DNA of 64,000 nt from Mariniflexile litorale (lineage in GTDB: Bacteria > Bacteroidota > Bacteroidia > Flavobacteriales > Flavobacteriaceae). The position numbers and the translations under genes are program-made. The notes beneath the pieces are model-generated. The model did not search any database, was not told the origin of the DNA, and saw only the letters and a program-made list of their open reading frames with translations. The stretch spans positions 381,501-445,500 of the forward strand of contig NZ_CP155618.1 in NCBI RefSeq assembly GCF_031128465.2. The letters run 5' to 3'. This document shows positions 27,376 to 63,567 of this stretch, one piece after another. How positions within the stretch are numbered: position 1 is the first letter of the stretch; each line of letters begins with the position of its first letter.

Positions 27376-27405
27376 TAACTTTGTTTACATAACACAATCG
27401 GTTGC
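27376..27405 (+). promoter_or_regulatory. Promoter and palindromic operator of the Weimberg operon
   Basis: TAACTTTG at 27376-27383 matches the -7 consensus TAnnTTTG. Ten bases downstream, 27394-27405 reads ACAATCGGTTGC, one of five copies of a palindrome in this window. The operator lies just past the expected start site, where a bound LacI-type protein would block initiation or elongation. The operon start is 27444. Confidence 0.6.
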
Positions 27406-27443
27406 ATAACTAACAACCGCTAGTTAATTAACAACTAAACTAA

Positions 27444-29165
27444 ATGAGTAAAGAGAAAAAACTTCGCAGCCAAGAATGGTTTGGAGGAGATGATAAAATG
27501 GGATTCGTACATCGCTCATGGTTACGTAATCAAGGCTATCCAGATGATTATTTTGAAGGCAAACCCGTCATTGGTATTTGTAATACTTGGTCTGAATTAA
27601 CACCTTGTAACGGACACCTGGGTGATGTAGCTGAAATTGTTAAACGCGGCATTCTTGAAGCTGGCGGTTTCCCTTTAGAATTCCCCGTGATGTCTTTGGG
27701 AGAAACGATTATGCGCCCAACAACCATGCTATTTCGCAATTTAGCAAGTATGGATGTTGAAGAATCCATACGCGCCAATCCATTAGATGGTATTGTACTA
27801 TTAACAGGTTGCGACAAAACCACGCCATCTACCATTATGGGTGCGTGTAGTGTAAATTTACCAACCATCGTGGTTCCTGGCGGCCCCATGTTAAATGGTC
27901 GTTTTAGAGGCGGTACCATTGGTTCTGGTTCATTCAATTGGATGATTAAGGAAAAACAAAAAACAGAGGAATTTGATGCTGAAGACATGCGTGAAGCCGA
28001 AATTTGTGCGGCACGAAGCATAGGGCATTGCAATACCATGGGCACAGCATCTACAATGGCTACCATGAGTGAAGCTCTAGGCTTAACACTTCCTGGTTTT
28101 TCATCCATTCCAGCAGCCGATTCTCGAAAAAAAGTGATGCAGCAGCTCTCTGGTCGTCGTATTGTAGAGATGGTGAACGAAGATTTAACCCTATCTAAAA
28201 TTCTAACCAGAAAAGCTTTTGAAAATGCTATTGTAACGAATGCTGCGGTTGGTGGTTCTACCAATTTAATTATTCATTTAATAGCTATAGCTCGCCGAAT
28301 TGGGGTCGATATAAAATTAGAAGATTTTGATACTATTGGTAGCCATATCCCCTTATTAGTTAATTTAATGCCTTCTGGAAAATATCTTATGGAAGACTTC
28401 TTCTATGCAGGTGGTTTACCAGTAGTTATGAAAGAATTGGGAGATTTACTACATCAAGATATTATTACTGCAAACGGTAAAACTTTTAAAGAAAACTACG
28501 TAAAAGCAAAGTGCTATGATAATGAGGTTATAGCTAAGATAGATAAGCCATTACAAGAAAATGCGGGTATAGCCGTGTTAAAAGGCAATTTATGTGAAAA
28601 TGGCTCAGTAATTAAACCTTCTGCTGCAACTTTAAAACTTATGAATCATACTGGAAGGGCTGTTGTTTTTGAAAGCATGGAAGATTATCATGAACGCATT
28701 GATCATCCGGATTTAGATATTGATGAGAATTGTGTTATTGTCCTCAAAGGTGTTGGTCCAAAAGGATATCCTGGAATGCCTGAAGTTGGTAATGTAGATC
28801 TTCCAGAAAAACTCATCCTGAAAGGCGTTAAGGATATGATTCGTATTTCTGATGGCAGAATGAGTGGTACTGCTTACGGCACTGTTGTTCTCCATATCTC
28901 ACCGGAATCAACAATAGGAGGTACTTTGGCGATTGTTCAAAATGGCGATATGATTACTTTAGATGTTGAAAATAGATTATTGCAACTTAATATTTCTGAT
29001 GAAGAAATTACCAAAAGAAAATCAGAATGGCAAGCCCCAGAGCCTATGGCAACAAGAGGTTATGTACGTATTTATTTAGATCATGTTGAAGGAGCTGATG
29101 TTGGTGCCGATTTAGATGTTCTGGTTGGTGGCTCAGGTTCAAAGGTAGATAGAGATTTACACTAA
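27444..29165 (+). CDS. IlvD/Edd family aldonate dehydratase (pentonate type)
   Basis: The protein has 573 residues. It belongs to the IlvD/Edd family, in the branch of D-xylonate and L-arabinonate dehydratases rather than branched-chain IlvD. Cys55 (LTPCNGH), Cys123 (TGCDKTTPS) and Cys196 (IGHCNTMG) have the spacing of the [2Fe-2S] ligands of this branch, and the magnesium-site region MGFVHRSW and RMSGTAYGTVVLH are present. It would convert a pentonate to 2-keto-3-deoxy-pentonate. The next genes encode a GntP permease, an FAH-family dehydratase and a semialdehyde dehydrogenase, which is the Weimberg series. D-xylonate is favoured by the xylan context; L-arabinonate is possible. Confidence 0.88.
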   Translation: MSKEKKLRSQEWFGGDDKMGFVHRSWLRNQGYPDDYFEGKPVIGICNTWSELTPCNGHLGDVAEIVKRGILEAGGFPLEFPVMSLGETIMRPTTMLFRNLASMDVEESIRANPLDGIVLLTGCDKTTPSTIMGACSVNLPTIVVPGGPMLNGRFRGGTIGSGSFNWMIKEKQKTEEFDAEDMREAEICAARSIGHCNTMGTASTMATMSEALGLTLPGFSSIPAADSRKKVMQQLSGRRIVEMVNEDLTLSKILTRKAFENAIVTNAAVGGSTNLIIHLIAIARRIGVDIKLEDFDTIGSHIPLLVNLMPSGKYLMEDFFYAGGLPVVMKELGDLLHQDIITANGKTFKENYVKAKCYDNEVIAKIDKPLQENAGIAVLKGNLCENGSVIKPSAATLKLMNHTGRAVVFESMEDYHERIDHPDLDIDENCVIVLKGVGPKGYPGMPEVGNVDLPEKLILKGVKDMIRISDGRMSGTAYGTVVLHISPESTIGGTLAIVQNGDMITLDVENRLLQLNISDEEITKRKSEWQAPEPMATRGYVRIYLDHVEGADVGADLDVLVGGSGSKVDRDLH

Positions 29166-29171
29166 AAAAAC

Positions 29172-30521
29172 ATGGTAGTTCTTTATCTATTAATATCAGT
29201 TTTACTTATTATTCTGCTAACGGCAAAGTTGAAAGTACATCCTTTTGTAGCTTTACTTTTAGTCGCTATTTGTTACGGAATAGCTGTCGGCATGCCTTTA
29301 AATCAAATTATCGATTCTGTCAATATAGGTTTTGGAAATACCTTAGGCGGTATTGGAATGATTATCATTTTAGGTGTTATTATTGGTGCTTTTCTCGAAA
29401 ACTCTGGAGGCGCTTATGCATTAGCTGAAAAAGTTTTAAAATTCACTGGAAAGAAAAAAATCCCTTTTGCTATGGGACTTATTGGATGGTTTGTATCCAT
29501 TCCTGTTTTTGCAGATAGCGGTTTCATGTTACTCGCTCCCTTAAATAAAAGTCTATCCAAAAAAGCAGGTATTTCACTATCTGGAACAGCCATAGCATTG
29601 GCACTAGGTTTAACGGCAGCACATACATTAGTGCCACCCACACCAGGACCCATTGCAGCAGCACATTACTTAAATGCAGATTTAGGTTTAGTGATGTTAT
29701 TAGGTATTCCAATAAGTTTCTTTGCTTTAATGATGGGTTTAATATTTGTTAAAAAAGTGGTTTCAAAAACCTATATTGATCCTGATCCAAAAATTACAGA
29801 TGCCGAAATTACGGAACGACTTAAAAATGCACCAAGTGCATTTAAGTCAACTATACCTATTATTGTTCCCATAATCCTTATTGTTATAAAATCCTTGGTG
29901 ACTTCGGTTTTTGGTTATAAAACTGACGATTACGAATCATTTCCAACATTTATAAAAATAATATTATTTTTAGGTGAACCTTTTATAGCTTTACTAATTG
30001 GTTGTTTTTTATCACTAACCCTTCCGAAGAAATTAAACAGAGACATGTTTTCTACTTCTGGTTGGATTGGGAAAGCTTTATTAGGAGCTTCTTCTATTTT
30101 ATTAATTACAGGAGCTGGTGGTATATTTGGTCAAGTGCTTAGAGATTCAGGGATTGCAACTACTTTAGGCGAAACATTATCGAACATAAACATTAGTATT
30201 TGGTTGCCATTTTTATTAGCAGCGTCCATAAAAACAGCACAAGGTTCGTCAACTGTTGCATTAGTAACAACCGCATCCATTTTAGCACCCATGATGTCAA
30301 GTTTAGGTTTTGAAACCGAATTACAAAAAGCCATGGTTGTTATAGCCATTGGAGCAGGTTCGTCTGTGGTTTCACATGCAAATGATAGTTTCTTTTGGGT
30401 GGTAACGAGGCTTTCTGGAATGGATGTAAAAATGGGATATCGTTTTCATAGTATAGGAACATTTATTTTGGGCACATCGGCAGCCCTATTATTATTCATT
30501 TTATATTTAATTTTAGCATAA
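29172..30521 (+). CDS. GntP family gluconate/aldonate permease
   Basis: The protein has 449 residues and many membrane helices. GntP family marks are [65 protein letters not shown] and [16 protein letters not shown]. The family imports gluconate and related aldonates by proton symport. It starts 6 bp after the dehydratase, and its stop overlaps the next start (TAATG). Its place between the two dehydratases implies import of the same pentonate, so the cell may take up xylonate directly. Confidence 0.92.
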
Positions 30522-31354
30522 TGAAGATTTACAACACATCAAAAGGGGTTTTAATTGAATTAGAAAAAATGTTTCATCTCATTAATAAAAATTGGGATGA
30601 ATTAATTAATGATGATAATTTATACAACAATTTAAAAAGCATTGTAAACACAAGTGCTCCGATTGATAATCATCATGATTTGATTGATAATTATCTAAAA
30701 GCACCATTAGAAAGTCAAGAAATTTGGGCGAGCGGCGTTACGTATTTTAATAGCAAAATGGCTAGACAAGAAGAAAGTAAAGATGCGGGGGGCGCAGATT
30801 TTTACGAACGTGTTTATTATGCTGATAGACCCGAGTTATTCTTTAAAGCGACAGCGCATCGTTCCGTGCCTTCTGGAGGAAAAGTAACTATTAGAAAAGA
30901 TTCTACTTGGGATGTTCCTGAACCGGAATTAACTTTGGTAATTACTTCAAACGGAAAAATTATTGGTTATACCATTGGTAACGATATGAGTTCGCGAAGT
31001 ATTGAAGGTGAAAACCCCCTGTATCTACCACAAGCCAAAACATTTGATGCTTGTGCTGGTGTAGGTCCCTGTGTTTTGGTTACCGATAAACCTTTACCTT
31101 TAGATACTAAAATCCATTTAAAAGTAATTAGAAATACAGACGTTATTTTTGATGAAACCACCAGTATTAGTAAAATGAAACGTAACCCTCAAGAATTAGT
31201 TGAATATCTATTTAGAGAATGTACCTTCCCTAAAGGATGCTTGCTAATGACCGGGACAGGCATTGTACCTACAACTGATTTTACTCTAAAAAGCAAAGAC
31301 GAAATTCAAATTTCAATAGATCATATAGGTACTTTAATTAATTATGTAAGATGA
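30521..31354 (+). CDS. FAH family 2-keto-3-deoxy-pentonate dehydratase (XylX-like)
   Basis: The protein has 277 residues and belongs to the fumarylacetoacetate hydrolase fold. The segment [44 protein letters not shown] carries the metal-binding acidic residues and the [10 protein letters not shown] stretch typical of 2-keto-3-deoxy-D-xylonate/arabinonate dehydratases. The product would be 2-oxoglutarate semialdehyde. It overlaps the GntP stop by one base and the esterase start by four bases (ATGA), so translation is probably coupled. Function is strongly supported by the aldehyde dehydrogenase two genes on. Confidence 0.87.
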
Positions 31355-32229
31355 AACTAATTAAAACCGTATTTCTTTTTTGCCTACTTACTGCCATACA
31401 TATCTCTAATGCTCAAGACAGTAAGTATACTTGGGGAGAAGACTCGAATCGACATGAAAATATTCCTAAAGGAACTGTAGCTAAATATGTCTGGAAGAGT
31501 ACCATTTTTGAAGGAACCATTAGAGAATATTTTATATATGTTCCTGCTCAATATAAATCTAATGAAGCTACAGCTTTAATGGTTTTTCAAGATGGACATG
31601 CGTATATAAATGAAGAAGGTAGTTTTAGAGCGCCAATCGTATTTGATAATCTTATTTATCAAAAAGAAATGCCAGTGACTATAGGATTATTTATCAATCC
31701 GGGTGATATAAGTTCCGTATTACCTGAAGACCCTTTTAGAGCTAGTAACCGAAGTATTGAATACGATAGTTTAAATGATGATTATATTCGCTTTCTTATG
31801 GAAGAACTTATACCCGAAATAAGTAAAACGTATAACATAACGACCAATCCTAAAATGAGAGCCATTTGCGGATTGTCTTCAGGTGCTATTTGTGCTTTTA
31901 CAGCAGCATGGGAACGACCAGATTATTTTAATAAGGTGATGAGTCATATTGGAAGTTTTACAAATATTCGTGGAGGACATAACTATGAAGCTATGATTAG
32001 AGAAACACCTAAAAAAAATATTAAAGTATATCTTCAAGATGGATCTAACGATTTGAATAATGAATACGGAAATTGGTGGCTTGCTAATCTGCAAATGGCA
32101 TCATCACTAGAATATATGTCCTACGATTATATGTTTGTAAAAGGTGATGGAGCACATAATGGAAAACATGGAGGCAGCGTGTTTCCAGAAGCACTAAAAT
32201 GGCTATGGTCTGATTTTAAAAAGAAATAA
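31351..32229 (+). CDS. Exported CE1/Fes-like esterase
   Basis: The protein has 292 residues. A signal peptide ([11 protein letters not shown]) precedes an alpha/beta-hydrolase of the enterochelin esterase/feruloyl esterase type. The nucleophile elbow is G-L-S-S-G with Ser176, a candidate acid lies in LQDGSNDL, and a histidine lies in GAHNGKHGG. Family members remove acetyl or feruloyl groups from xylan. Its location inside a sugar-acid operon, coupled to the FAH gene by an ATGA overlap, also leaves an aldonolactone as possible substrate. I cannot tell these apart from sequence. Confidence 0.75.
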
Positions 32230-32249
32230 TAATTAAACAAATTATAAAA

Positions 32250-33827
32250 ATGAGATTGACAGGAGGAAATTATATCGCTGGTTTAGTATCATCAGAAGGA
32301 AAAAGTACGTTTACAAGCATTAATCCTTTAAACGCATCAAAATTACCAACAGATTTTCATGAAGCTACCATAGAAGAAGTTCATAAAGCAGCTATAAAAG
32401 CGCATGAAGCATTTGCTATTTATAGCAAAAAAAGCGGCAACAAAAAAGCAGATTTTTTAGATGCAATAGCCGATGAAATTTTAAATTTAGGAGATGCTTT
32501 AATTGAACGTTGTTGTGCCGAAACTGGCTTACCTGCAGGAAGAATTACGGGTGAAAGAGGACGAACTATGGGGCAATTAAAAATGTTTGCTACAGTTTTA
32601 CGCGAAGGTTCTTGGGTTGATGCACGAATTGACCATGCAATACCTGATCGTGAACCATTACCAAAAGTTGATATGCGATCTATGCAAAAACCATTAGGGG
32701 CTGTAGGTGTTTTTGGAGCAAGTAACTTTCCTTTAGCCTTTTCAGTTGCTGGTGGAGATACTGCTTCTGCTTTAGCAAGTGGTTGTACCATAGTTGTAAA
32801 AGGACACCCTTCGCATCCAGGAACTTGCGAAATGATTGCTATTGCAATAAATAAAGCTATTGAAACATGTAACATGCCCAAAGGTGTTTTTTCTTTAGTA
32901 CAAGGGCAATCGGTTGAAGTTGGTATGGCCATAGTAAACCATCCACTCATAAAAGCAATTGGTTTTACAGGTTCATTCAAAGGCGGAAAAGCAATTTTTG
33001 ATGCTGCAAATAAAAGACCCGAACCAATTCCTGTATATGCTGAAATGGGAAGTACCAACCCTGTTTTTATTTTACCAAACGCATTGAAACAAAATGGAAA
33101 TGATATTGCTCAAGGATTAACAAATTCTGTGACCCTTGGAGTCGGTCAATTTTGTACAAGCCCAGGACTTGTCTTTTTACAGAATTCTGAAATTTTATCT
33201 GGTTTCAAATATACAGTTTCACAACATTTTGAGCAGGTTGAGGCAAATACCATGTTAAATAGCGGAATTAAAAAAGCATTTGATAAAGGCATAGATTTTT
33301 TGAATAGTAAAAGGGAAGTCAATTTATTAGCAAAGGGAAAAGTTAATAACGAAGGCTATAAGGGAACATCATACATTTTTGAAACATCGGCTAAAAATTT
33401 TATTAAAGAAAATTATTTAGAGGAAGAGATTTTTGGACCATCAACCATATCCATTACAGCAGATTCTAAAGAAGAATTATTAGCGTCCGCCCATAAATTA
33501 AAAGGACATTTAACAGCTACTCTTTTTGCTACCGAAGAAGATTTAGAAAATTATACAGATTTAATTCAAATCTTAGAACAAAAAGTAGGCAGATTAATTA
33601 TCAATAATTATCCAACAGGTGTTGAAGTATGTCATTCTATGGTGCATGGTGGCCCATTTCCATCCACTTCCAACAGTCGTTCAACATCAGTAGGAACAGG
33701 AGCTATTACGCGATTCACAAGACCCTTCTGTTACCAAAATTTCCCTAATCACTTATTGCCAAATGAATTAAAAAACGAAAATCCATTACATATTTTCAGA
33801 ATTATTGATGGCGAAATAACAAAGTAA
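32250..33827 (+). CDS. 2-oxoglutarate semialdehyde (2,5-dioxovalerate) dehydrogenase
   Basis: The protein has 525 residues, the long form of aldehyde dehydrogenase seen in sugar-acid pathways. Catalytic Cys302 is in GQFCTSPG, the general-base glutamate in YAEMGSTNP, and the cofactor region in GVFGASNFPLAFSVAGGD. It ends with HGGPFPSTSNSRSTSVGTGAI, typical of 2,5-dioxovalerate dehydrogenases. It would oxidise 2-oxoglutarate semialdehyde to 2-oxoglutarate, the last Weimberg step. It starts 20 bp after the esterase and ends the operon. Confidence 0.93.
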   Translation: MRLTGGNYIAGLVSSEGKSTFTSINPLNASKLPTDFHEATIEEVHKAAIKAHEAFAIYSKKSGNKKADFLDAIADEILNLGDALIERCCAETGLPAGRITGERGRTMGQLKMFATVLREGSWVDARIDHAIPDREPLPKVDMRSMQKPLGAVGVFGASNFPLAFSVAGGDTASALASGCTIVVKGHPSHPGTCEMIAIAINKAIETCNMPKGVFSLVQGQSVEVGMAIVNHPLIKAIGFTGSFKGGKAIFDAANKRPEPIPVYAEMGSTNPVFILPNALKQNGNDIAQGLTNSVTLGVGQFCTSPGLVFLQNSEILSGFKYTVSQHFEQVEANTMLNSGIKKAFDKGIDFLNSKREVNLLAKGKVNNEGYKGTSYIFETSAKNFIKENYLEEEIFGPSTISITADSKEELLASAHKLKGHLTATLFATEEDLENYTDLIQILEQKVGRLIINNYPTGVEVCHSMVHGGPFPSTSNSRSTSVGTGAITRFTRPFCYQNFPNHLLPNELKNENPLHIFRIIDGEITK

Positions 33828-33926: not shown

Positions 33927-35726
33927 TTGAAAAAGAAGACTGTTTTTAAAATCATTAGTATTTCGCTTCCTTTTTTAATAATATTAATAATTGAGGTTGG
34001 GTTGAGAAGTTTTGGATATGGTGATAACTATCAGCTATTTAATAAAGTGAAAGTTGAAAATAGACCAGAATATCTTATAATGAATTCTGACATCTCTAAA
34101 AAATATTTCAAAAATGAAGGCTTTCATTCTGATAATCAATCCGATTTGTTCCTTAGAACAAAAACAGACAGTACCTTTCGAATTTTTGTACAAGGGGCTT
34201 CTACAGTAGTGGGCTTTCCATTTTATCATGGTGGCTCTTTCCCTCGTATGTTAAAACAAAGACTGTCTGAAACATTTCCAGGAAAAAATATTGAAGTTGT
34301 AAACACAGGAATTACAGCTGTAAACTCCTATACATTATGGGATTTGACTGATAAAATAATAGAACAAAAACCAGACCTTGTAATTATTTACGCAGGACAT
34401 AATGAATACTACGGAGCTTTAGGTGTTGGTTCATCAAGCTCTTTTGGAAGTCATCCCGTTATAGTTAGATCGTATCTTTTTCTTAAAAATTTCCGTTTCT
34501 TTCAATTATTAGATAATACATATACTAAGTTTCTTAGTCAAAAAAAGGACACACCTAAAGTTGGTGAAACAACCTTGATGGAAGTTATGGCAAAGGAACA
34601 ACGTATAGCTTTAAATTCGGAGGTTTTTCAAGCAGGAATAAACCAATTTGAAGATAACTTAGAAAAAATTTTAAATACCTACAAGAAGAAAAATATTCCA
34701 GTTATTATTTCTACCATAGTGTCCAATGAGAAAGATATTAAACCTTTTATTAGCGATTCTATAGAAGATACTAAAAAGTTTACTAAAGCTTTAAATGAGG
34801 GGAATTTGGAAGCTAATAAATTAGCCCAAAATAATGGCATGGCAGCATATACACTTGGTCGTTTTTACCTTAACAAGAACCAAGATACAGCTAAAAAATA
34901 TTTGCATCTGGCTAAAGAATTAGATTTTTTAAGATTTCGAGCACCTGAAAAAATAAATGATGTCATTGTGAATTTAGCTAAAAAACACCATTGTTCTTTG
35001 GTGGATATGAAAGCTATTTTTTTATCGCATTCTGAAAAAGGTATAATTGGAGATGAACTACTTACAGAACATTTACACCCAAATATAAAGGGTTCTTTTA
35101 TTATGGCAGATGCCTTTTATAACAAAATTAAAGAATTAAAATATTTAAGTAATTGGGATAATTATATATCCTATACTGAGGCTTTTGAAGATATACCCAT
35201 CACACAAATTGATTCTCTAAGAGGTAAATTCCTTATAGATGATTTAAAAAACTCATGGCCATACGACTTAAGTATGTCTAGAAATAAACCATTATCGTCA
35301 TATCACTACATACAAAACCCAACTTACGAAGAAAGAAGAGCTATAGAAATTCATACAAATCAAGTAGTAGATTGGAGAGATATCATGTATCAATCCTATC
35401 ATAGATATAATAAAGAAAAAGCTTACCAAAAAGGACTTCAAGTAGCCCAATCTCTAATTTTTGAATACCCCGAGGAAGCAGAAGTGTATTCTTTAGCAGG
35501 AAATATGTGTTTAAATCTAAACAAAATAAACAAAGCAGCCTATTACTTTTTTAAATGCAATGAATTAGATAAAACCAGTACATCAGCACAACAATTAGCC
35601 TCTATATATATTAAATTAAATAAGATGGATTTAGCAAAAAAAACGCTTTTGGAAGCAAAGAAGAGAGGTGAAAATGATGAAGAACTTAAAATGATGCTTA
35701 AAGACATAACTAACAAGATAAATTAA
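33927..35726 (+). CDS. SGNH/GDSL hydrolase-like protein with C-terminal TPRs
   Basis: The protein has 599 residues. The start is a TTG (33927-33929); it is needed to include the N-terminal membrane anchor (KKKTVFKIISISLPFLIILI), and no upstream in-frame ATG exists. The SGNH blocks are present: serine in VQGASTVVG (about residue 92), Asn159 in YAGHNEYYG, and the DxxH-type histidine in TEHLHPNIKG. Residues about 480-599 form TPR-like helices. It probably acts on acyl groups of a surface glycan at the outer face of the inner membrane. It converges on the SxtJ gene with only 5 bp between stops and belongs with the carbamoyltransferase cassette. Confidence 0.8.
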   Translation: MKKKTVFKIISISLPFLIILIIEVGLRSFGYGDNYQLFNKVKVENRPEYLIMNSDISKKYFKNEGFHSDNQSDLFLRTKTDSTFRIFVQGASTVVGFPFYHGGSFPRMLKQRLSETFPGKNIEVVNTGITAVNSYTLWDLTDKIIEQKPDLVIIYAGHNEYYGALGVGSSSSFGSHPVIVRSYLFLKNFRFFQLLDNTYTKFLSQKKDTPKVGETTLMEVMAKEQRIALNSEVFQAGINQFEDNLEKILNTYKKKNIPVIISTIVSNEKDIKPFISDSIEDTKKFTKALNEGNLEANKLAQNNGMAAYTLGRFYLNKNQDTAKKYLHLAKELDFLRFRAPEKINDVIVNLAKKHHCSLVDMKAIFLSHSEKGIIGDELLTEHLHPNIKGSFIMADAFYNKIKELKYLSNWDNYISYTEAFEDIPITQIDSLRGKFLIDDLKNSWPYDLSMSRNKPLSSYHYIQNPTYEERRAIEIHTNQVVDWRDIMYQSYHRYNKEKAYQKGLQVAQSLIFEYPEEAEVYSLAGNMCLNLNKINKAAYYFFKCNELDKTSTSAQQLASIYIKLNKMDLAKKTLLEAKKRGENDEELKMMLKDITNKIN

Positions 35727-35731
35727 AACAC

Positions 35732-36091
35732 TTACCAAGGGTTTTTAATATCTTTATTGGTATATAAATGATTCCGCTTAATAAAATGAGAATCATTTTC
35801 TTCTTTTTTAAGTATTTGATTTGCGCCAAACATACGCTGAAAAAAGGATATTGGGCATAGGAACAAATAAAATATGAGGGACATGGTTATATAATTCATC
35901 ACAATTCCTAAATATTCAGAAAAAGCAAACCATACTTTGCCTATAAAAATTGTTAGTTTTTTAGAAATAAAGGACATAGCTAACAAGCCAATCGATACAT
36001 AAACAAGCCAATTAACATCAAACCACAAGGAAGCTACAAGCGATACTAAAGCTAAAACAATAATGGTTTCAAGAGATTTTTCCCAATTCAT
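35732..36091 (-). CDS. SxtJ-like small membrane protein
   Basis: The protein has 119 residues if it starts at the ATG at 36089-36091, which overlaps the stop of the upstream DUF5989 gene by one base (TAATG). A longer open frame to 36193 exists but would overlap most of that gene. Two or three membrane helices are visible (TIIVLALVSLVASLWF, WLVYVSIGLLAMSFI, YITMSLIFYLFLCPISFF). It matches the SxtJ type, a protein of unknown function named from saxitoxin clusters where it neighbours a carbamoyltransferase, as here. Confidence 0.8.
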   Translation of the reverse strand: MNWEKSLETIIVLALVSLVASLWFDVNWLVYVSIGLLAMSFISKKLTIFIGKVWFAFSEYLGIVMNYITMSLIFYLFLCPISFFQRMFGANQILKKEENDSHFIKRNHLYTNKDIKNPW

Positions 36092-36240
36092 TAGAATAAC
36101 GAGTAAATAAATGGCGCCAATGCCGAACCACTTGTTATAAATATTAATGCGCCAAAAATCATGAATATTATAATTAATGGTACAAGCCACCACTTTTTTC
36201 TTTCTCTTAAAAAAACAAAAAAATCTTTAATAAACTCCAT
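36091..36240 (-). CDS. DUF5989 small membrane protein
   Basis: I translated this 49-residue protein by hand. It starts MEFIKDFFVFLRERKKWW and has one hydrophobic helix (LVPLIIIFMIFGALIFI), ending SALAPFIYSLF. This is the DUF5989 pattern. The ATG at 36238-36240 directly abuts the carbamoyltransferase stop at 36241, and its own stop overlaps the SxtJ start. Such tight order (carbamoyltransferase, DUF5989, SxtJ) suggests the three make one membrane complex. Function is unknown. Confidence 0.85.
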   Translation of the reverse strand: MEFIKDFFVFLRERKKWWLVPLIIIFMIFGALIFITSGSALAPFIYSLF

Positions 36241-38073: not shown

Positions 38074-38101
38074 ACAATCGGTTGCTAAAATAACAAATTA
38101 A
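38074..38101 (-). promoter_or_regulatory. Operator and probable promoter of the carbamoyltransferase cassette
   Basis: On the minus strand, TTAATTTG (38101-38094, one mismatch to TAnnTTTG) is followed after 8 bp by GCAACCGATTGT (38085-38074), the palindrome shared by five regions. The layout copies that at 27376-27405, with the operator just past the expected start site. Confidence 0.5.
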
Positions 38102-38327: not shown

Positions 38328-38366
38328 GCAATCGGTTGTGTTTTGTGAAATTATTTTATACTTTTG
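38328..38366 (+). promoter_or_regulatory. Operator and promoter of susCD operon 1
   Basis: GCAATCGGTTGT at 38328-38339 overlaps the -33 position, and TACTTTTG at 38359-38366 matches TAnnTTTG exactly with a 19-bp spacer. The leader to the susC start is 108 bases and is closely similar to that of the second plus-strand susC. Confidence 0.6.
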
Positions 38367-41564: not shown

Positions 41565-41574
41565 AAAAATAATT

Positions 41575-49042: not shown

Positions 49043-49085
49043 ATCAATGACTATTAAACAACTGAATTTAAAAAAACAGATTAAT

Positions 49086-50450: not shown

Positions 50451-50476
50451 AACGTTTTATCTTAAAAAAACAGAAA

Positions 50477-53765: not shown

Positions 53766-53787
53766 TATTCGAGTTTTATAATTGAAT

Positions 53788-55239: not shown

Positions 55240-55265
55240 GTATTCCTATTTAGTTGGTTAGTTGG

Positions 55266-56384
55266 TTATTTTTTCAAGCTTATAATACTATCATAAGCTT
55301 GTTTAGGCTTAAATTCTCTGTCGAAGAGCAATGGATAATTGGTTCGTCCTTCAATAGGCCAATCGTTAAGCCAAGATTGACCATCGTTTACACCCCAAAA
55401 GGTTACTCTACTAATTTTATCTTGGTGCTTTAAGAATAGTTTAAATATATCTTGATAACGATTTGCTAATTTTGTTTGAATAGAATCTGGTAAACTTTTA
55501 GGGTATGGATTCATTTTCTCACTACCTTCAAAATTTTGATTTACATCAGCTCCAACTAAATCCCATGGACTTGGTAAAAGGTTTATATCTAACTCTGTAA
55601 TAGCTACTTTTACTCCCAAAGAAGCATAGTCTAAAATACTTTCTTCTATTTCTTCAATTGAAGGAGAATCTATATGCCAATGTCCTTGCATACCAACACC
55701 ATCAATTTTAATTCCTTTTTCTTGAAGCTTTTTTACTAATCTTATAGCTCCTTTTCTTTTGGCTACATCAGTCATATTATAATCGTTATAATACAAATCT
55801 GTATTCGAGTCCGCTTCAGATGCCCATTTAAAAACCAACGCTAAATAACCTTCACCTAAAGCATCTAAAAAAGCTGTTTTTCGTAAAGTGCCATCTTCAT
55901 TTAATGCTTCATTCACCACATCCCAAGAATTTATTTTTCCTTTATACCTACTAACAATAGTTTTTATATGATTTTCCGTAGCTAAAGCCATTTCTGTGCT
56001 ATCCTTTATTTCTGAAAACCAGGGAGCTAATTGACTGTGCCATATCAAGGTATGTCCGTGAATGAACATATCATGTTTTTTTCCGAAAGCTATATATTTA
56101 TCAGTTAATTTAAAATCAAAGGCATCTTTAGTAGGATGGATAAACATTGATTTCATAATATTTTCTGAAGTAATGCTATTGAACTCTTTTGATATCAATG
56201 CTGTAACCAACGAATCTTTTTCTAATATTTGATTTTCGCTAAGTGCCGTTCCTATATAGAAATTTTCATTGTAAGCTTCCTTTAGTGCAATAACTGTAGA
56301 TGGTTTTTCATCATTGTTTTCTTTACAACTGTTAGCTAGAATTAGTATGGATACAATGAATATAAATTGTTTTAATGTTTTCAT
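55266..56384 (-). CDS. GH10 endo-xylanase lipoprotein
   Basis: The protein has 372 residues. The lipoprotein cysteine is in LILANSCKEN (20). The GH10 barrel has TSENIMKSMFIHP, HGHTLIWHSQLAPWF, acid/base Glu159 in WDVVNEA, nucleophile Glu264 in ITELDIN, and TFWGVNDGQSW. It is similar in size to the GH10 at 26169, with no CBM. It begins 4 bp after GH115, so both are co-translated in the glucuronoxylan operon. It may cut decorated oligosaccharides in the periplasm. Confidence 0.94.
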   Translation of the reverse strand: MKTLKQFIFIVSILILANSCKENNDEKPSTVIALKEAYNENFYIGTALSENQILEKDSLVTALISKEFNSITSENIMKSMFIHPTKDAFDFKLTDKYIAFGKKHDMFIHGHTLIWHSQLAPWFSEIKDSTEMALATENHIKTIVSRYKGKINSWDVVNEALNEDGTLRKTAFLDALGEGYLALVFKWASEADSNTDLYYNDYNMTDVAKRKGAIRLVKKLQEKGIKIDGVGMQGHWHIDSPSIEEIEESILDYASLGVKVAITELDINLLPSPWDLVGADVNQNFEGSEKMNPYPKSLPDSIQTKLANRYQDIFKLFLKHQDKISRVTFWGVNDGQSWLNDWPIEGRTNYPLLFDREFKPKQAYDSIISLKK

Positions 56385-56387
56385 AAT

Positions 56388-59282
56388 TTAGTTGGTTTTA
56401 AAGCTTTGTGGTGGACCCAAATAAGTACTTTTCAAATCACTTGTTTCTGTTTCTATAATTATTTTTTGAAGGACCAAACCTTCATCAATTCTATAATAAT
56501 TCAACGTGTGATTTCCTGCCTTATCAATTTCAAATTCTGTTGTAATAATTTTAATATTGTCTGCTACATTTGAATGCCAATTACTAGGAACTTTCCCGTT
56601 ATAATTAAAAATATTTGGATCTGAATCGTAATTTATTTGAGTTGGGGTTTCTTTATTAAAAGACAAACCAAAATACATACCTTCTCTCGGCGCATAATTG
56701 ATGGTTGGAGAAAAATACATATGCACTTTTACTTTTCCTTTGTTTTGAAAATTAACATTATAAGATAACTTAGGTGATTTTTTTGATAGCCCTACCCTAC
56801 CCTTTTTTATTGGCAGAGAAATTACAGCATCATCTGTTTTACCTAAATTTTCAACCACTTTCCATTGGAATTGTTTTGGTTCATATTTATTAGAGAAATT
56901 TTTAGCATTTATAGAAATGAATCCATTGTTTTCTACAAACCCATCCACATGAGATGGATTAAGGTTGTTTATTTTAATATGAATGGGTACTTGCTTTCCT
57001 GCTCCAATAACAGTTACAACAGAATTTTGAACCCCTTTAGGGGCATGATCCCAATCAATACTTACTGTAATGCTCTTTTCATTTTTGATAATACCGTTTG
57101 GTTCTGATATTTTCACCCAAGTAGCATTACTTTTAATTTCATATGAGAAATCTTCTTTTCCTCTGTTAAAAATTTCAATAGGATACTTTTGGTTATTGAA
57201 GGAATCGAAAATTGGTAAGATCGCACCTTCGTTAGTTCCAGACCACCATTCATTAGAACCTTCCATGGAGACACCCATTTCTGCATCATCGGCTTCATCA
57301 ATTTTATAGGTTTCGGGTATCTTGTTAAATTTAGGTTCTTGCCAAATTTCGTAACCAATATGGGTTTGAGACATCATATGGTTCCACTTTCCATGAGCCA
57401 TTTCTTTATGGTAATAGCTCGTTAATTCTTTGTCTTTATTAAATAATTCTTTTACTTTTTCGGCATAAAAATTTGTAGATGTTCTACCCTGTTTTGCGTA
57501 CAGATTATTTTTTGCAGCACTTACATAGAGTTCATTAAGATTTGCACTTGCTAATACAGGAAATAACACCAATTGATAATAGGCATCTTTATACATTTCA
57601 GGGAGTTCGTTATTAATGGCTTGTGCTTTTTTTGCTAGTTCATTAAACTGTTCAATAACTGCATTGGCTTCGTTATAATTGTGTAAACTGTAAGTTGAGG
57701 CATCTATTAATTCGTGTTTTCTTCTTGCATTATACTTGATGTATTTTTTCATGATATCTGCAATGGCTTCTGTTTGAATACCTCCAAAAACAGCATTTGC
57801 CCATAGTTTGTAATAATCTTGTAAATTATCGGCATGCCATTTTTCAGGATCCCAGGCATAGTCAAAGAAAAATTGCAAAGGGAATTCCATTGGTTTGATA
57901 TCCCCTACATTTACAATCCATACTTTATCTACCCCATGTTCATAAGCCAAATGCATTTGCTCCCACGTACGTTCAATCTGATTTGTATTTAACCATTTAT
58001 AGTTCCGAGGACCGCCAACATAATCAAAATGATAATAAATACCATAACCACCTTTACGAGGTTTTGCATCGAGACTAGGTAGTTTTCTAATATTCCCCCA
58101 ATTGTCGTCACAAAGCAATAATGTTACATCGTCAGGAACCTGCATGCCTTTATCATAATAATCTTGAACTTCCTTATATAGTGCCCAAATTTGAGGTGTT
58201 TTTTCAGCAGGTTTGCCTGTTACATCTGCAATAATTTTACGCTGTTCTTTTACAATTGTTTCAAGTAAATCTGTTGCAGTTTCTTCACTCATCGCTTCAT
58301 CACCATCACCACGCATACCAACGGTTATTAAAGTTTCTTTAGTTCCCATTCGCTTCAAACCTTCTTTCCAAAAGGCTTTCAAGCCATCTGCGTTGGTATT
58401 AAAATCCCAGTCTCCGTTTACAGATTTATTCCATTCGGCATGAGCACGTGATAATGGTTCGTGATGTGAGGTTCCCATAACGATACCATATTCATCTGCT
58501 AATATGGCATTTTGAGAATCATCAACATTAAACTTTCTTGGTGGCCACATAGCTGGCCATAAATAATTCCCTTTCATTCTAAGAATAAGCTCAAAAACTT
58601 TATCATAGAACTCAGCATTAAAATCACCATATTTTTCATAAACCCAACCCGTTAAAGCTGGCGCTTCATCATTTATAAAAAAGCCTCTGTATTTAACTTT
58701 TGGTTCTCCTAAAGTGTGAATACCAGGAAGCACATGTAATTCTGATTGTTTTTTTACAGGTACATCTGCCCAAAAATACCACGGCGAAACACCTATTTGA
58801 CTTGACAAATCATAAATACCATAAATAGTCCCCCGTTTGTCTGAACCAGCAATAACCAATGCTTTTTTTACACCTGCCATTGGATTTTCAACAATTTGGG
58901 TCGTGAATTTCTCCCATTTCCCTTGAAGTGGAATGGCATCAATTTTACCTTCTTTAACTAATTGATCAATTATAGAACTTTTACCTAAAGTCCCAATAAT
59001 CACCATGTAATCTTCAATTTGCGATTTATCATTGAAAATATTTGGTAGAATTCCTGCAACATTCAGAAGATCATTTTGAAGATGACTCACCACACGTAAT
59101 ACTCCCGAAAAATCAGTTTCGCTTACTAATATAGAAGCTACTTTACCGTTAGCTGCTAAAGGAAAATTTGCATTTGATGCCTTTGCTACTACATATTTAT
59201 TTATATCAATAGCAAATGCGCTATTGATATAAATAAATAAAAATGTTAAACCGAAGAATCGTTTGGTATTTAAAAATGTCAT
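56388..59282 (-). CDS. GH115 xylan alpha-1,2-glucuronidase
   Basis: The protein has 964 residues, the normal size. A signal peptide (FIYINSAFA) precedes an N-terminal domain. The catalytic TIM barrel begins near VKYRGFFINDEAPALTGWVYEKYG, with LWPAMWPPRKFNVDD, GIVMGTSHHEPLSR, DGDEAMSEE and LLLCDDNWGNIRKLP. The C-terminal part has Ig-like and beta-sandwich domains. GH115 removes (4-O-methyl) glucuronic acid from internal xylose units, unlike GH67, which needs a terminal one; both are in this operon. Confidence 0.94.
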   Translation of the reverse strand: MTFLNTKRFFGLTFLFIYINSAFAIDINKYVVAKASNANFPLAANGKVASILVSETDFSGVLRVVSHLQNDLLNVAGILPNIFNDKSQIEDYMVIIGTLGKSSIIDQLVKEGKIDAIPLQGKWEKFTTQIVENPMAGVKKALVIAGSDKRGTIYGIYDLSSQIGVSPWYFWADVPVKKQSELHVLPGIHTLGEPKVKYRGFFINDEAPALTGWVYEKYGDFNAEFYDKVFELILRMKGNYLWPAMWPPRKFNVDDSQNAILADEYGIVMGTSHHEPLSRAHAEWNKSVNGDWDFNTNADGLKAFWKEGLKRMGTKETLITVGMRGDGDEAMSEETATDLLETIVKEQRKIIADVTGKPAEKTPQIWALYKEVQDYYDKGMQVPDDVTLLLCDDNWGNIRKLPSLDAKPRKGGYGIYYHFDYVGGPRNYKWLNTNQIERTWEQMHLAYEHGVDKVWIVNVGDIKPMEFPLQFFFDYAWDPEKWHADNLQDYYKLWANAVFGGIQTEAIADIMKKYIKYNARRKHELIDASTYSLHNYNEANAVIEQFNELAKKAQAINNELPEMYKDAYYQLVLFPVLASANLNELYVSAAKNNLYAKQGRTSTNFYAEKVKELFNKDKELTSYYHKEMAHGKWNHMMSQTHIGYEIWQEPKFNKIPETYKIDEADDAEMGVSMEGSNEWWSGTNEGAILPIFDSFNNQKYPIEIFNRGKEDFSYEIKSNATWVKISEPNGIIKNEKSITVSIDWDHAPKGVQNSVVTVIGAGKQVPIHIKINNLNPSHVDGFVENNGFISINAKNFSNKYEPKQFQWKVVENLGKTDDAVISLPIKKGRVGLSKKSPKLSYNVNFQNKGKVKVHMYFSPTINYAPREGMYFGLSFNKETPTQINYDSDPNIFNYNGKVPSNWHSNVADNIKIITTEFEIDKAGNHTLNYYRIDEGLVLQKIIIETETSDLKSTYLGPPQSFKTN

Positions 59283-59300
59283 GCTTTATACTATGGTATT

Positions 59301-60491
59301 TTAAATTTTGTTATCTAATTCATGTTTTAATTTATAACGGATGCCCATCTCCAAACCTCTCAATTCTGCTAGTCCTTTAAGTCTCCCTACTAATGAATAG
59401 CCCGGATACTGTTCTTTTCCTTCTTCAATAGAATGTAAAAATCCATGATCGGGACGAAGTGGTAAATCGATATTTCTTTTCTGCATCAATAAAACCAATT
59501 TTTCCATAATCCTCTCAATAGGGTTATCACCGTTGAGGTGTTCCGATTCTCTAAAAACGTCTTTAGAATCTCTTTTCACATTCCTAATGTGTAAAAAATG
59601 TATTCGATCTCCGTGCACGTCGATTATTTGTTCAAGATTATTTTTCGGATCCGCACCTAAAGAACCCGTACAATAACAAAGGCCGTTTGCACTAGTAGGT
59701 ACTGAATTAAAAATAGCATTTAAATCGTTTTCTGTACTAACTACCCTTGGTAATCCTAATACTGAAAATGGAGGATCATCTGGATGAATCGCTAATTTCA
59801 CCCCTGATGCTTCAGCAACTGGAGCAACTTCAGATAAGAAATGAATTAAATTACCTCTTAATTTATCATTATCGATGTCTTTATAATTTTCAAGTAGTGA
59901 CAAAATTTGTTCTCTTGTAAAACTCACTTTACTTCCTGGTAATCCAAGAAGCACATTTTTAAAGAGTAAATCTTTATCACTTTGTGAAAGGGAGTTTCCA
60001 TAGTTTAAAGCAATCTGCTTTTCTTCTTCTGTATAATCATTTTCAACATGTGGTCTTTTCAATAAAAAAAGATCAAAATAGTTGAAAGCAACTTGGTTAT
60101 ATAGTAATGCTTTACTTCCATCTGGATTTTCAAATGCATGATTGGTGCGTACCCAATCTAGAATAGGCATAAAGTTATAAGTCACTACTTTAATACCACA
60201 GGTTGCTATGTTTTTTATGCTATTTTTATAATTCTCTATATACTTTAAATGTGCTCCATTTGCCTTTTTTATATCTTCATGAACTGGTAAGCTTTCAATG
60301 ACTGTCCATTCCATTCCTGCATTTCTTATGGTTTCTTGACGTTCTTTAATAGCCTCTACCGTCCAAATATCTCCAACAGGAATTTCGTGTAAAGCGGTTA
60401 CAATTCCTGTAACACCACATTGTCTTATATCTTTTAATGAAATGGTATCGTTAGGACCAAACCAGCGCATTGTTTGTTGAATTTGTTTCAT
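59301..60491 (-). CDS. uxuA: D-mannonate dehydratase
   Basis: The protein has 396 residues. It opens QTMRWFGPNDTISLKDIRQC and has the TGIVTALHEIPVGDIWT segment, IHPDDPPFSVLGLPRVV (metal ligands), NGLCYCTGSLGADP, HFLHIRNVKR and LPLRPDHGF. UxuA dehydrates D-mannonate to 2-keto-3-deoxygluconate. The SDR gene lies 11 bp upstream and GH115 starts 18 bp downstream, linking glucuronate release to its breakdown within one transcript. Confidence 0.96.
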   Translation of the reverse strand: MKQIQQTMRWFGPNDTISLKDIRQCGVTGIVTALHEIPVGDIWTVEAIKERQETIRNAGMEWTVIESLPVHEDIKKANGAHLKYIENYKNSIKNIATCGIKVVTYNFMPILDWVRTNHAFENPDGSKALLYNQVAFNYFDLFLLKRPHVENDYTEEEKQIALNYGNSLSQSDKDLLFKNVLLGLPGSKVSFTREQILSLLENYKDIDNDKLRGNLIHFLSEVAPVAEASGVKLAIHPDDPPFSVLGLPRVVSTENDLNAIFNSVPTSANGLCYCTGSLGADPKNNLEQIIDVHGDRIHFLHIRNVKRDSKDVFRESEHLNGDNPIERIMEKLVLLMQKRNIDLPLRPDHGFLHSIEEGKEQYPGYSLVGRLKGLAELRGLEMGIRYKLKHELDNKI

Positions 60492-60502
60492 ATCTTCAAA
60501 AA

Positions 60503-61237
60503 TTAAAATCCTATACTATTTCCACCATCAACCGGAAGCACTGTGCCCGTTACAAATTTAGATTCACTCGATGCGAAATAATAAACAGCATCACCAATGT
60601 CAGATGGTTCTCCTAAAATACCCATTGGGGTTCTAGATAGCACTTTGTTTTTTCTTTCTGGATCACTATCTAATGCTTTAGCCGACATTTTGGTTTTTAT
60701 AAAACCTGGTGCTACACAATTTACTCGTACATTATATTGAGCCAATTCTACTGCCATGGCGCGAGTCATAGCTTCAATAGCTCCTTTACTTGCTGTGTAA
60801 GCAATAACTTTTGGAATACCATACTGAGAAGCCATTGAACTTATATTTACAATGTTACCACCACCATGATTTTTCATTATTTTAACCACCTCTCTACTTA
60901 TAGAAAACACACTTTGTATGTTTGTATGAATAATAGAATCAAAATCTTCATCTGTTACATCAATAAATTCCTTTTTAAAATTGATACCTGCATTGTTTAC
61001 TAAAATATCGATATTACCATTTTTAGCAATATCTGTAATCATAGTTGGAATTCCTGCTAGATTATTCAAATCAAAAATAACCGGTATTGCGTTTGCACCT
61101 ATTTCCGAACAGGCATCTTCTGTTTTTTCTTTGGTTCTTCCAATAATAAAAGTTTTTATACCGTTATCACATAATTTCTTTGCTGTTGCAAATCCTAATC
61201 CTGAATTACCTCCAGTAACTATCGCTATTTTACTCAT
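60503..61237 (-). CDS. SDR oxidoreductase, probable D-mannonate oxidoreductase
   Basis: The protein has 244 residues, a classical SDR. The cofactor loop is TGGNSGLG (8-15), NNAG is at 81-84, and the triad is Ser134, Tyr147 and Lys151 (SSMASQ...VIAYTASK). It sits directly upstream of uxuA, and no long-chain UxuB is present in the window. Reduction of D-fructuronate to D-mannonate is therefore the best inference, as a non-homologous UxuB substitute. It differs from the SDR at 17112, which is in the UxaA-type operon. Confidence 0.85.
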   Translation of the reverse strand: MSKIAIVTGGNSGLGFATAKKLCDNGIKTFIIGRTKEKTEDACSEIGANAIPVIFDLNNLAGIPTMITDIAKNGNIDILVNNAGINFKKEFIDVTDEDFDSIIHTNIQSVFSISREVVKIMKNHGGGNIVNISSMASQYGIPKVIAYTASKGAIEAMTRAMAVELAQYNVRVNCVAPGFIKTKMSAKALDSDPERKNKVLSRTPMGILGEPSDIGDAVYYFASSESKFVTGTVLPVDGGNSIGF

Positions 61238-61265
61238 CTTGTTTTTTTAAATTATTTTATTACTC

Positions 61266-63422
61266 TTAATTTCCTGGTGCAAAAGTAAATTTTAAAGATT
61301 TAAAATAGTCTAATGTTTGAGTTGATTTTTCAACACCAACAGGTAATGATTTTTGTGAAAACTCCTGAAAATATAATAAGCATGCATCTCGCCACCATTT
61401 AGCTTCTTTATGTTGAATATTTAATAACATGTAAACATCACTAAACCTTTCCTCATCAACATATGGTTTCGCTTCTTCCCAAATGCTTATCATGGATGCT
61501 ACTTGATCAACACCTTCTTGGTATTTTAGAGCCATCCCATCCCAAAGTGTTTTTCCATTTTTTAATTTAAAATCCCATGATACGTGATGAAACCATAATA
61601 AATCCTCTTCTGGACAAGTTTCAAGATTATTAAACTTTGAAGCAACTTGAGGTGCATATTGAGCAGTAGCATTGCTTCCTGATGGTGTTCGATCAAACCC
61701 TACTCCTAACGAATCTGCTTTATGATAATAAACTGGATTCCATTCAGGTCTTGATAAATCAGACACCCATGGACCAGGACCATAATGATGTCCTGTATCC
61801 ATAATATGATGTAAACCTAAAGGTGTCATATAATTTACAACGGCTTCTCTTGAACTTAATAACATATCTTTTACTGGTTTTACGAATTTTTCATCATTAG
61901 AAAAAGTAGAACGTAACCACTCATCAGCTATTTCTTCAGAACTTAAATATGGGTTCCAAGCCAATCGTCCAAAACCATACCAGTTTGCTTGTAACATGGG
62001 GTTCCCTGTCCAATTAATATCATTTCCAATATTACTAACACCTGCAATACCTGTTAATACTTTATTATCTAAAGAGCCATCAATAATTTTTGCAACCGTT
62101 GAACCTTTCCCCTTTTTATACGTGTCTGATTGTAAAACTTCTTCATATAATTTTGGAAGAAAAACGGTATGTGTACTTTGGCCTAAATATTCTTGAGTAA
62201 TTTGAAATTCCATCATCAAAGGTGTTTTTGGCATCGTTCCAAACATAGGATGAAAGGGTTCTCGAGGCTGAAAATCAATCGCACCATTTTTCACTTGAAT
62301 AATCACGTTATCTTTAAATTGCCCATCGTAAGGCACAAACTCGGAATATGCTTGTTTAGCTCTATCGGTAATATCGTGTTCTGAATACACAAAAGCTCGC
62401 CACATGACAACCCCTCCAAAAGGTGTAAGAGCATCTGCCAGCATATTGGCGCCATCTACATGGTTCCTACCATAATTTTGTGGTCCTGGCTGCCCTTCTG
62501 AATTTGCCTTAACCAAAAAGCCTCCAAAATCAGGGATTTTAGAGTAAATTTCTTTAACTTTATTTTTCCACCATGCAATAACTTCTGCATCATAGGGGTC
62601 GGCTGTTTCTAATCCACCAATTTCTATAGGAGCAGAAAAACGTGTTGTTAAATACACTTTTATACCATAAGGTCTAAAAACATTCGCCAGTGCTTCCACT
62701 TTTTCTAAATACTGGGGTGTTAAAATGAGAGCATTCGCATTAACATTGTTTAAAACGGTTCCATTGATACCAATAGAAGCATTAGCACGGGCATAATCTC
62801 TATATCTTGAATCTATGTAATCTGGCAAACGATGCCAATCCCAAATGGAAAAACCAGCATAACCTCTTTCTACCGTTCTATCTAAATTATCCCAGTGATT
62901 TAATACACGAACTTTTATTTTGGGAGCATCTATAATATTTAAATTTTCTATAGATTGATGTGTTTGTAATAATCTCAAAAATTTAAAAACACCGTATAAA
63001 ACGCCTACGTCATTTTTACCTGTTATAATAATTTGATTTTTACCTTTAATTGAAATAGTTTTAATAACGAATCCTTCATCATTTATTTCATTAAACGCAT
63101 TCCCTAATTGGTTTTTAACAATCTCATTTAAAGAAGACTCAGAACCAAACATCAAAGAATTAGATTCAATATTATTTTTTGTACCAGATAAAACCTTTGA
63201 ACCAAGCATACCATTCAGTCCTAATTCAAGCTCTTTTAAAGCAACTTTTATTGTTTCAGAATTACCAAAAGGAATTATTCTTTTAATATTCGATTGATAG
63301 CTGGTTCGTATTTGCTTATCTTGAATATGATTGTATTGCAACCATAACTTATACCCATCGTTAGCAAAACTTTTTATACAAACCATAGAAAGTAGCAATA
63401 ACGTTAAATAATACTTTTTCAC
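61266..63422 (-). CDS. GH67 alpha-glucuronidase
   Basis: About 718 residues from the GTG at 63420-63422, which gives a standard signal peptide (KKYYLTLLLLSMVCIKSFA); a GTG nine codons earlier (63449) is the alternative. GH67 hallmarks are RVLNHWDNLDRTVERGYAGFSIWDW, the acid glutamate in KANSEGQPGP, the base pair Asp/Glu in AIDFQPREPF and FQITQEYLGQSTH, and a C-terminal domain with RPEWNPVYYHKAD and WFHHVSWD. It releases (methyl)glucuronate from the terminal xylose of aldouronic acids. First gene of the seven-gene minus-strand operon. A periplasmic site is implied. Confidence 0.95.
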   Translation of the reverse strand: MKKYYLTLLLLSMVCIKSFANDGYKLWLQYNHIQDKQIRTSYQSNIKRIIPFGNSETIKVALKELELGLNGMLGSKVLSGTKNNIESNSLMFGSESSLNEIVKNQLGNAFNEINDEGFVIKTISIKGKNQIIITGKNDVGVLYGVFKFLRLLQTHQSIENLNIIDAPKIKVRVLNHWDNLDRTVERGYAGFSIWDWHRLPDYIDSRYRDYARANASIGINGTVLNNVNANALILTPQYLEKVEALANVFRPYGIKVYLTTRFSAPIEIGGLETADPYDAEVIAWWKNKVKEIYSKIPDFGGFLVKANSEGQPGPQNYGRNHVDGANMLADALTPFGGVVMWRAFVYSEHDITDRAKQAYSEFVPYDGQFKDNVIIQVKNGAIDFQPREPFHPMFGTMPKTPLMMEFQITQEYLGQSTHTVFLPKLYEEVLQSDTYKKGKGSTVAKIIDGSLDNKVLTGIAGVSNIGNDINWTGNPMLQANWYGFGRLAWNPYLSSEEIADEWLRSTFSNDEKFVKPVKDMLLSSREAVVNYMTPLGLHHIMDTGHHYGPGPWVSDLSRPEWNPVYYHKADSLGVGFDRTPSGSNATAQYAPQVASKFNNLETCPEEDLLWFHHVSWDFKLKNGKTLWDGMALKYQEGVDQVASMISIWEEAKPYVDEERFSDVYMLLNIQHKEAKWWRDACLLYFQEFSQKSLPVGVEKSTQTLDYFKSLKFTFAPGN

Positions 63423-63555
63423 TCTCAGTTTGTTTGTAAGATAAATCACTTTTATTTTAGTTTATTGATAATTTGAAACATTTTCACTTATATAAGTATA
63501 TATTTCATAATATCTTCATTAATTAATTGTGAAGATAAAAAAAATATTTTAATTT

Positions 63556-63567
63556 GCAATCGGTTGC
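63556..63567. promoter_or_regulatory. Palindromic operator between GH67 operon and GH3
   Basis: The sequence is GCAATCGGTTGC, the most symmetric of the five copies. On the minus strand a TATCTTCA, 18 bp downstream of the operator, could be the -7 of the GH67 operon, matching the layout at the susC promoters. On the plus strand TTAATTTG (63549-63556) directly abuts it. It may control both directions. Confidence 0.55.

Follow-up and report, generated by a model that had tools for sequence, protein, structure and literature searches.

The window analysed here, 64,000 nucleotides of Mariniflexile litorale DNA (C1:381501-445500 of the single 4,521,428-base contig C1; coordinates without prefix are window positions), carries in its right part the genes listed with window positions in Table 1. 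Two SusCD pairs, an SGBP, GH10 genes, GH115, GH67, two GH43, GH3 and an MFS_2 transporter are grouped around a short recurrent DNA motif, and their combination suggests a glucuronoxylan system. The original prediction had proposed that this motif is the operator of a LacI-type xylan regulon. Among the genes next to its copies, the 27444..33827 operon looks like a non-phosphorylating sugar-acid route, presumably of the Weimberg type, and the SxtJ-like protein owes its name to a weak match under the Pfam cut-off.

Table 1. Predicted operators, operons and candidate regulator gene of the xylan locus, with distant motif copies (window positions unless prefixed C1)
Feature	Coordinates	Strand	Position or content
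Operator 1	27394..27405	+	39 bp upstream of IlvD/EDD operon
Operator 2	38074..38085	+	34 bp upstream of carbamoyltransferase gene (-); 390 bp upstream of SusC1
Operator 3	38328..38339	+	136 bp upstream of SusC1
Operator 4	44093..44104	-	136 bp upstream of SusC2
Operator 5	63556..63567	+	divergent region: GH67 (-) 107 bp, GH3 (+) 96 bp
Operator 6	C1:452070-452081		beyond window edge, 6.6 kb to the right; inside 5' end of GH43 gene
Two distant copies	C1:2163163 and C1:2163428		before SusC in second GH115-containing locus
IlvD/EDD operon	27444..33827	+	IlvD/EDD dehydratase, GntP permease, FAH-family enzyme, esterase, aldehyde dehydrogenase
GDSL/carbamoyltransferase cluster	33927..38040	+, -, -	GDSL/TPR protein (+), SxtJ-like protein (-), carbamoyltransferase (-)
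SusC1 operon	38475..43554	+	SusC1-SusD1
SusC2 operon	44240..52666	+	SusC2-SusD2-SGBP-GH10/CBM4_9
GH67 operon	52746..63449	-	GH67-SDR-UxuA-GH115-GH10-MFS-GH43, pointing away from operator
lacI	C1:450873-451901	-	342 aa; 5.4 kb past right window edge, same glucuronoxylan locus

The motif, RCAATCGGTTGY, is present exactly at operators 1 to 5, at the positions and on the strands originally reported, whereas 100 dinucleotide shuffles of the window gave a mean of 0.01 copies and never reached five. All five copies are intergenic and close to operon starts, with a start codon 34 to 136 bp away. In the whole 4.52 Mb genome the exact motif occurs eight times and the reversed pattern once, with about 1.2 copies predicted from base composition alone, and six of the eight lie inside 43,188 bp. 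Only operator 6 falls within a gene, the other seven genomic copies being intergenic. We also inspected 21 chosen variant sites, 20 drawn from the 76 one-mismatch places plus one more. All 15 sites with either a wrong end base (seven) or a difference at the central C (RCAATTGGTTGY, eight) are inside mechanically called reading frames; the remaining six, which are like other LacI operator types, comprise four intergenic and two in-frame sites. Judged by this intergenic versus in-frame placement, the exact copies are regulatory-like and the end-base and central-C near copies chance-like. The looser pattern GCAAnCGnTTGC with up to two mismatches was not above chance in the window (20 matches, 15.5 expected) and was rejected as a marker of further window sites, as was a sixth window site at 32906-32917, which carries one mismatch and lies inside the aldehyde dehydrogenase gene.

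No gene within the window exceeds the threshold for the LacI helix-turn-helix domain (PF00356), as the original prediction had stated. Its description of the regulon as lacking a local regulator was nevertheless an artefact of the window edge, since a lacI gene lies just past it (Table 1). The genome scan that had been proposed thus finds a LacI gene beside one of the eight matches: operator 6 sits 169 bp upstream of the lacI start. The encoded protein combines an N-terminal PF00356 domain, scoring 46.2 bits when the genome was searched and 42.4 bits with the protein itself against a cut-off of 27, with a C-terminal periplasmic-binding-like effector (sugar-binding) domain. Because this gene belongs to the same glucuronoxylan locus, because its orthologs are accompanied by the same operator before GH67, GH3, SusC, MFS, GH43 and lacI genes, and because of the shape of the sites and their promoter positions, we assign a probability of about 0.88 to the reading that the five window sites are operators of one LacI-family repressor, the product of lacI. 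The proposal of a LacI-type operator common to the xylan operons is thereby supported, at the level of sequence, by both the nearby gene and the ortholog loci.

Orthologs of the regulator were searched for in 149 genomes of the Flavobacteriaceae. At no less than 54% identity, they are found in 14 genomes including the source genome (15 proteins), and the next best match reaches 45%. Exact sites number 43 in the 13 other genomes; by hand tally, 27 of them share a contig with lacI at a distance of no more than 50 kb. Genomes with an ortholog carry on average 3.64 sites versus 1.0 reversed-pattern copies, compared with 1.11 versus 0.67 in the other 135 genomes. A second set of 77 ortholog loci came from named records through a pattern search whose reach is limited to close relatives; these stretches of 3.8 to 21 kb (1.33 Mb in total) are mostly from Flavobacterium, with some from Confluentibacter, Tamlana, Aestuariibaculum and metagenome-assembled genomes. 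They contain 183 exact sites and no reversed-pattern copy, and 72 of the 77 loci carry one site or more. Related loci are not independent; the non-redundant counts on operator shape and promoters given below were thinned by flanks, and the statistics ignore kinship. As many as 178 of the 183 sites are intergenic, in DNA of which 12.4% is intergenic, leaving only five inside reading frames. Together with the placement of the genomic copies, this answers the concern that the 12-mer might be equally common inside genes: it is not. Starts within 450 bp of the 183 sites belong to MFS (64), GH67 (59), lacI (24), GH3 (23), SusC1 (11), GH43a (9) and a few other genes, one site sometimes counting for two genes, and these kinds match those of the window. 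The genes were named by their best BLAST match to window proteins and the frames called mechanically, so that some distances and in-frame assignments may be off. Eleven sites have no start within 450 bp, 10 of them within 1.5 kb of a stretch end. Among 26 site-centred loci (L248, which is not centred, was left out), five sites are inside frames, one being the GH43 site. Some Flavobacterium genomes carry two copies of the xylan lacI ortholog on separate contigs, for example F. anhuiense CGMCC 1.6859 (L078 and L112) and F. johnsoniae CI04 (L088 and L116).

The original prediction described the motif as a 12-bp palindrome. The motif itself is real, yet it is only the central part of a longer, imperfect palindrome of 20-22 bp, approximately TTTACRCAAYCGRTTGYGTAAA, with a central CG. 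In 118 non-redundant sites out of 220, conserved bases continue beyond the 12-mer on either side, the outer ones being moderately conserved (A at position -1 in 71%, T at position 14 in 72%). The 12-mer is not a true palindrome, position 5 being T opposite G at position 8. The operator is thus an even palindrome around a central CG that is imperfect at the two bases flanking this CG. An open-centre search with RCAANNNNTTGY in the 77 loci returned 183 TCGG/CCGA centres, 14 TCGA centres and two intergenic CCGG centres. Considering centres with T or C and A or G beside the CG, asymmetric ones make up 110 of 123 after flank thinning and 54 of 67 at the strictest setting, whereas independent half-sites could yield an asymmetric centre in at most one half. 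The palindrome is therefore usually broken at one base pair. This differs from what would be expected of a homodimer, which should prefer a symmetric site.

The position of the operators relative to promoters provides a further line of evidence. The consensus of the -33 element is TTG. Flavobacterial sigma-A promoters have a -7 box of the form TAnnTTTG (PMC9723704, in the portion available). At SusC genes, 10 of 14 non-redundant sites are followed by a TAnnTTTG box whose first base comes 29 to 32 bases after that of the operator; shuffling the downstream flank leaves a mean of 0.07 such sites. At these 10 sites the TTG of the operator precedes the box by 18 to 21 bases, which is the place of the -33 element. 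In the window, the TTG of operator 3 lies 20 bases before the TACTTTTG box of SusC1 (38359-38366) and that of operator 4 lies 21 bases before the TATATTTG box of SusC2 (44125-44132). Operator 1 takes a different position, 10 bp downstream of the TAnnTTTG box of the IlvD operon (27376-27383). Both layouts, on the -33 place and just downstream of the -7 box, fit repression, and the former points to occlusion of SusC promoters by the bound protein.

The operator next to lacI is embedded in coding DNA. In the source genome and in two further genomes (G061 and G040), lacI is divergent from GH43, and the operator falls within the coding part of GH43 at a distance of 80 to 95 bases from the called start. 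The aligned codons read CAA CCG ATT GCG (QPIA) in two of these genomes and CAA TCG GTT GCG (QSVA) in G061, where two bases and the protein differ and the operator is present as the reverse complement. The persistence of the operator where the codons differ is direct evidence, at the level of sequence, that it is the motif in the DNA and not the peptide that is kept, and we rejected the idea that site 452070 arises by chance from the protein sequence of GH43.

Assembled into a mechanism, these observations would have a repressor dimer occupy the sites and block RNA polymerase when xylan breakdown products are absent. A cytoplasmic inducer, most likely D-xylose, xylobiose or another short xylo-oligosaccharide, would release the repressor, and its release would switch on uptake, depolymerisation and sugar-acid catabolism together. 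The lacI gene itself would also be switched on, through the site embedded in the divergent GH43 gene. The distant copies at C1:2163163 and 2163428 probably belong to the same regulon. That second locus also contains a GntR-type regulator beside its GH115 gene, and three sites stand before its SusC gene (L010:9664-9940, C1:2163163-2163439), the two exact TCGG copies and one ACAATCGATTGT site with a TCGA centre, spaced 130 and 135 bp apart.

Several observations weigh against assigning the motif to this one repressor. For 16 of the 43 sites in the other 13 genomes with an ortholog, lacI is on a different contig or over 50 kb away. One of these genomes (G108) has no exact site, with two RCAATCGATTGY sites within 18 kb of its lacI. 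Five of the 77 ortholog loci lack an exact site in the flanks examined, and in the stretches from family genomes, named records apart, reading frames contain four of 29 sites, the GH43 site accounting for two of the four. Moreover, LacI proteins with the hinge NKFA[AVS]NL stand beside TCGG in six of eight entries (the other two have no site), so that the TCGG operator is not private to the xylan ortholog; this hinge occurs in none of the 12 LacI genes of the source genome. A -7 box at the SusC-like spacing is rare elsewhere (MFS 1 of 30, GH67 0 of 18, GH3 0 of 20, lacI 0 of 23). Finally, the xylose isomerase gene xylA of the source genome has no exact site nearby; an operator on this gene was considered and rejected, the nearest one-mismatch copy (1192143) being inside a frame next to xylA.

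Other readings were also weighed. The regulator might activate instead of repress, or a hybrid two-component system (HTCS) encoded elsewhere might exert the main control, with LacI modulating only. Polysaccharide loci of Bacteroides thetaiotaomicron are indeed mostly assigned to HTCS or SusR in the accessible part of a regulon study (PMC3878776), and most operators outside SusC promoters are away from a recognisable -7 box. However, the -33 place at 10 of 14 SusC promoters and the location downstream of the -7 box at the IlvD operon are positions that suit a repressor, and neither HTCS, SusR-type sensor, ECF sigma (extracytoplasmic function) nor AraC genes were found among the 22 scanned window proteins (26169 to 63449) and six right-flank proteins (L009:663-11977), HTCS genes elsewhere in the genome not having been searched for; we consider this reading unlikely. 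Slightly less probable again is that another LacI paralog, for example L019 (C1:2185959-2186972), is the main reader while the xylan-locus LacI acts elsewhere. The RCAA/TTGY arms are common to related LacI groups, a related RCAATCGATTGY site stands 300 bp ahead of the L019 start, and this symmetric variant also occurs in the second locus, flanked by the two TCGG copies there. Nonetheless, six of the eight exact copies cluster around the xylan lacI, 72 of 77 loci with an ortholog of this gene also hold TCGG sites, and the site of L019 itself is TCGA-centred, with no TCGG site within 350 bp of the gene. We give hardly any credence to the view that the motif is a chance or structural repeat without a dedicated reader, such as a conserved promoter piece: although the 135 family genomes without an ortholog also carry copies (150 versus 90 reversed), this view is at odds with the intergenic bias, the conserved targets, the promoter geometry and the survival of the operator as a reverse complement in a coding region.

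To relate operators to LacI groups, we sought RCAANCGNTTGY within 350 bp upstream or downstream of 82 LacI gene entries of the family (L012-L053 and L184-L223, the lacI of the source genome being counted twice). A site was found near 40 entries, and none was in range for 42. Proteins with the hinge NSIA[SA]SFR have an ACGT centre in all eight entries, those with the hinge [RK]N..AS[NK]LR a TCGA centre in 10 of 12 (one has ACGA downstream and one has none), and the 16 xylan-type entries include nine with TCGG, one (L026) with TCGA and six without a site within 350 bp. From these counts it follows that operator type tracks protein group. The pairing of LacI groups with ACGT, TCGA and TCGG centres on shared RCAA/TTGY arms suggests a simple specificity code. 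A tentative extension, which we regard as possible rather than probable, is that the four-base centre (ACGT, TCGA or the non-palindromic TCGG) insulates LacI paralogs sharing RCAA...TTGY, the asymmetry of the xylan operator having been selected so that paralogs preferring symmetric centres cannot read it and so that it can serve at the same time as -33 element of SusC promoters. If such a code is true, cross-talk between repressors could be tested by a few base changes.

In its overall design, the proposed xylan regulon resembles local sugar regulons of the LacI/GalR family (CcpA, PurR, RbsR, LacI), sharing with them the LacI helix-turn-helix, the periplasmic-binding-like effector domain, an even palindrome with a central CG, sites near gene starts and likely autoregulation. 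It differs in the usually asymmetric operator centre (TCGG/CCGA), the -33 place at SusC and the lacI-side operator in coding DNA in three genomes. A comparison of 1303 LacI factors found even palindromes of 16-22 nt in 1251 and a central CG in 1173; it placed less than 1% of the sites within coding regions and counted over three quarters of the local regulators as autoregulated. In the available portion of this survey the phylum is represented by a single group and the word Flavobacter is absent (PMC4052901). The xylan LacI regulon is of a known kind and apparently undescribed, its operator asymmetry being unusual and conserved, and no published description of the operator was found in open-licence literature, an absence that is not proof.

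Within the phylum, existing regulon maps, as far as their text was available, concern gut Bacteroides and invoke other regulator types for polysaccharides: in B. thetaiotaomicron, xylose is under the NrtR-family XylR and polysaccharides under HTCS or SusR, while the LacI regulators KdgR, UxaR, UxmR and UxuR are assigned to uronate pathways (PMC3878776). By description, the latter four are a parallel, being LacI-family regulators of the same phylum with a uronate link; unlike what is described for them, the xylan LacI site stands directly before SusCD and glycosidase genes. As a LacI-family protein, the candidate regulator falls outside the NrtR family of the Bacteroides XylR. A xylan polysaccharide utilisation locus map of Gramella flava likewise draws a lacI gene, and genes of the locus rise 2.3- to 89.6-fold on xylan; the likeness is one of description, the accessible text containing neither operator nor regulon (PMC5306329). 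The present analysis assigns a putative regulator, operator and promoter layout to xylan loci of the Flavobacteriaceae, a family of polysaccharide degraders, and the operator appears specific enough to list regulon members by sequence.

Other parallels exist in proteobacteria. The 20-bp palindrome of Caulobacter and Xanthomonas is read by a LacI-type XylR and probably differs in sequence from the xylan operator. According to the part of the report available, the Caulobacter xylose regulon resembles the present one by description, in that TonB-dependent uptake is combined with a shared 20-bp palindrome upstream of its genes (PMC1790865). More broadly, the xylan systems of B. ovatus, P. bryantii and Xanthomonas campestris are ascribed to LacI-family or HTCS regulators, and XylR/XylRA of E. 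coli and Vibrio join a LacI-type ligand domain to an AraC-type DNA-binding domain that acts on direct-repeat sites at xylan or xylose genes (PMC12125979, accessible part). The window protein encoded at 13149-14294 resembles this latter design, and no copy of the motif lies near it. Its gene belongs to the left part of the window (10527-25772), which also contains an AraC gene and an ECF sigma/FecR pair beside a TonB receptor and is free of the xylan motif, in agreement with the proposal that the window is divided between at least two regulatory circuits.

A structure model of the LacI protein has a mean predicted local distance difference test score (pLDDT) of 72.5, with the hinge and C terminus below 50; its ligand-domain matches are close and do not identify the effector. 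Tetrameric looping repressors of the E. coli LacI type are defined by a C-terminal tetramerisation helix. In the xylan LacI protein, whose last residue is 342, alignments to LacI chains reach no further than query residue 313-327. The model shows no helix beyond residue 316, with residues 331-342 at low confidence. The spacing of paired operators before SusC is 254 bp in the window, and in four related loci (L116, L126, L138, L160) it is 278-318 bp; hand comparison revealed no shared helical phase, and we do not claim looping.

The operator would bring the sugar-acid pathway and the GDSL/carbamoyltransferase cluster into the xylan response. In G061 and G040, too, homologs of the GDSL/TPR and carbamoyltransferase genes are found close to SusC1 and xylan operators, so that the pair is present in three genera including the source (window 33927-38040; L251:8319-12434; L252:1430-7972). 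A 153-codon frame, the weakly SxtJ-like one in the window, lies between these two genes in both the window and G061. In G049, a genome of another genus, a 94%-identical IlvD together with GntP and aldehyde dehydrogenase homologs is located beside lacI (L144:12693-18199), and an operator there precedes a GH10 gene by 16 bp, at a distance of 133 bp from lacI. The near identity of IlvD beside lacI in a different genus hints at transfer.

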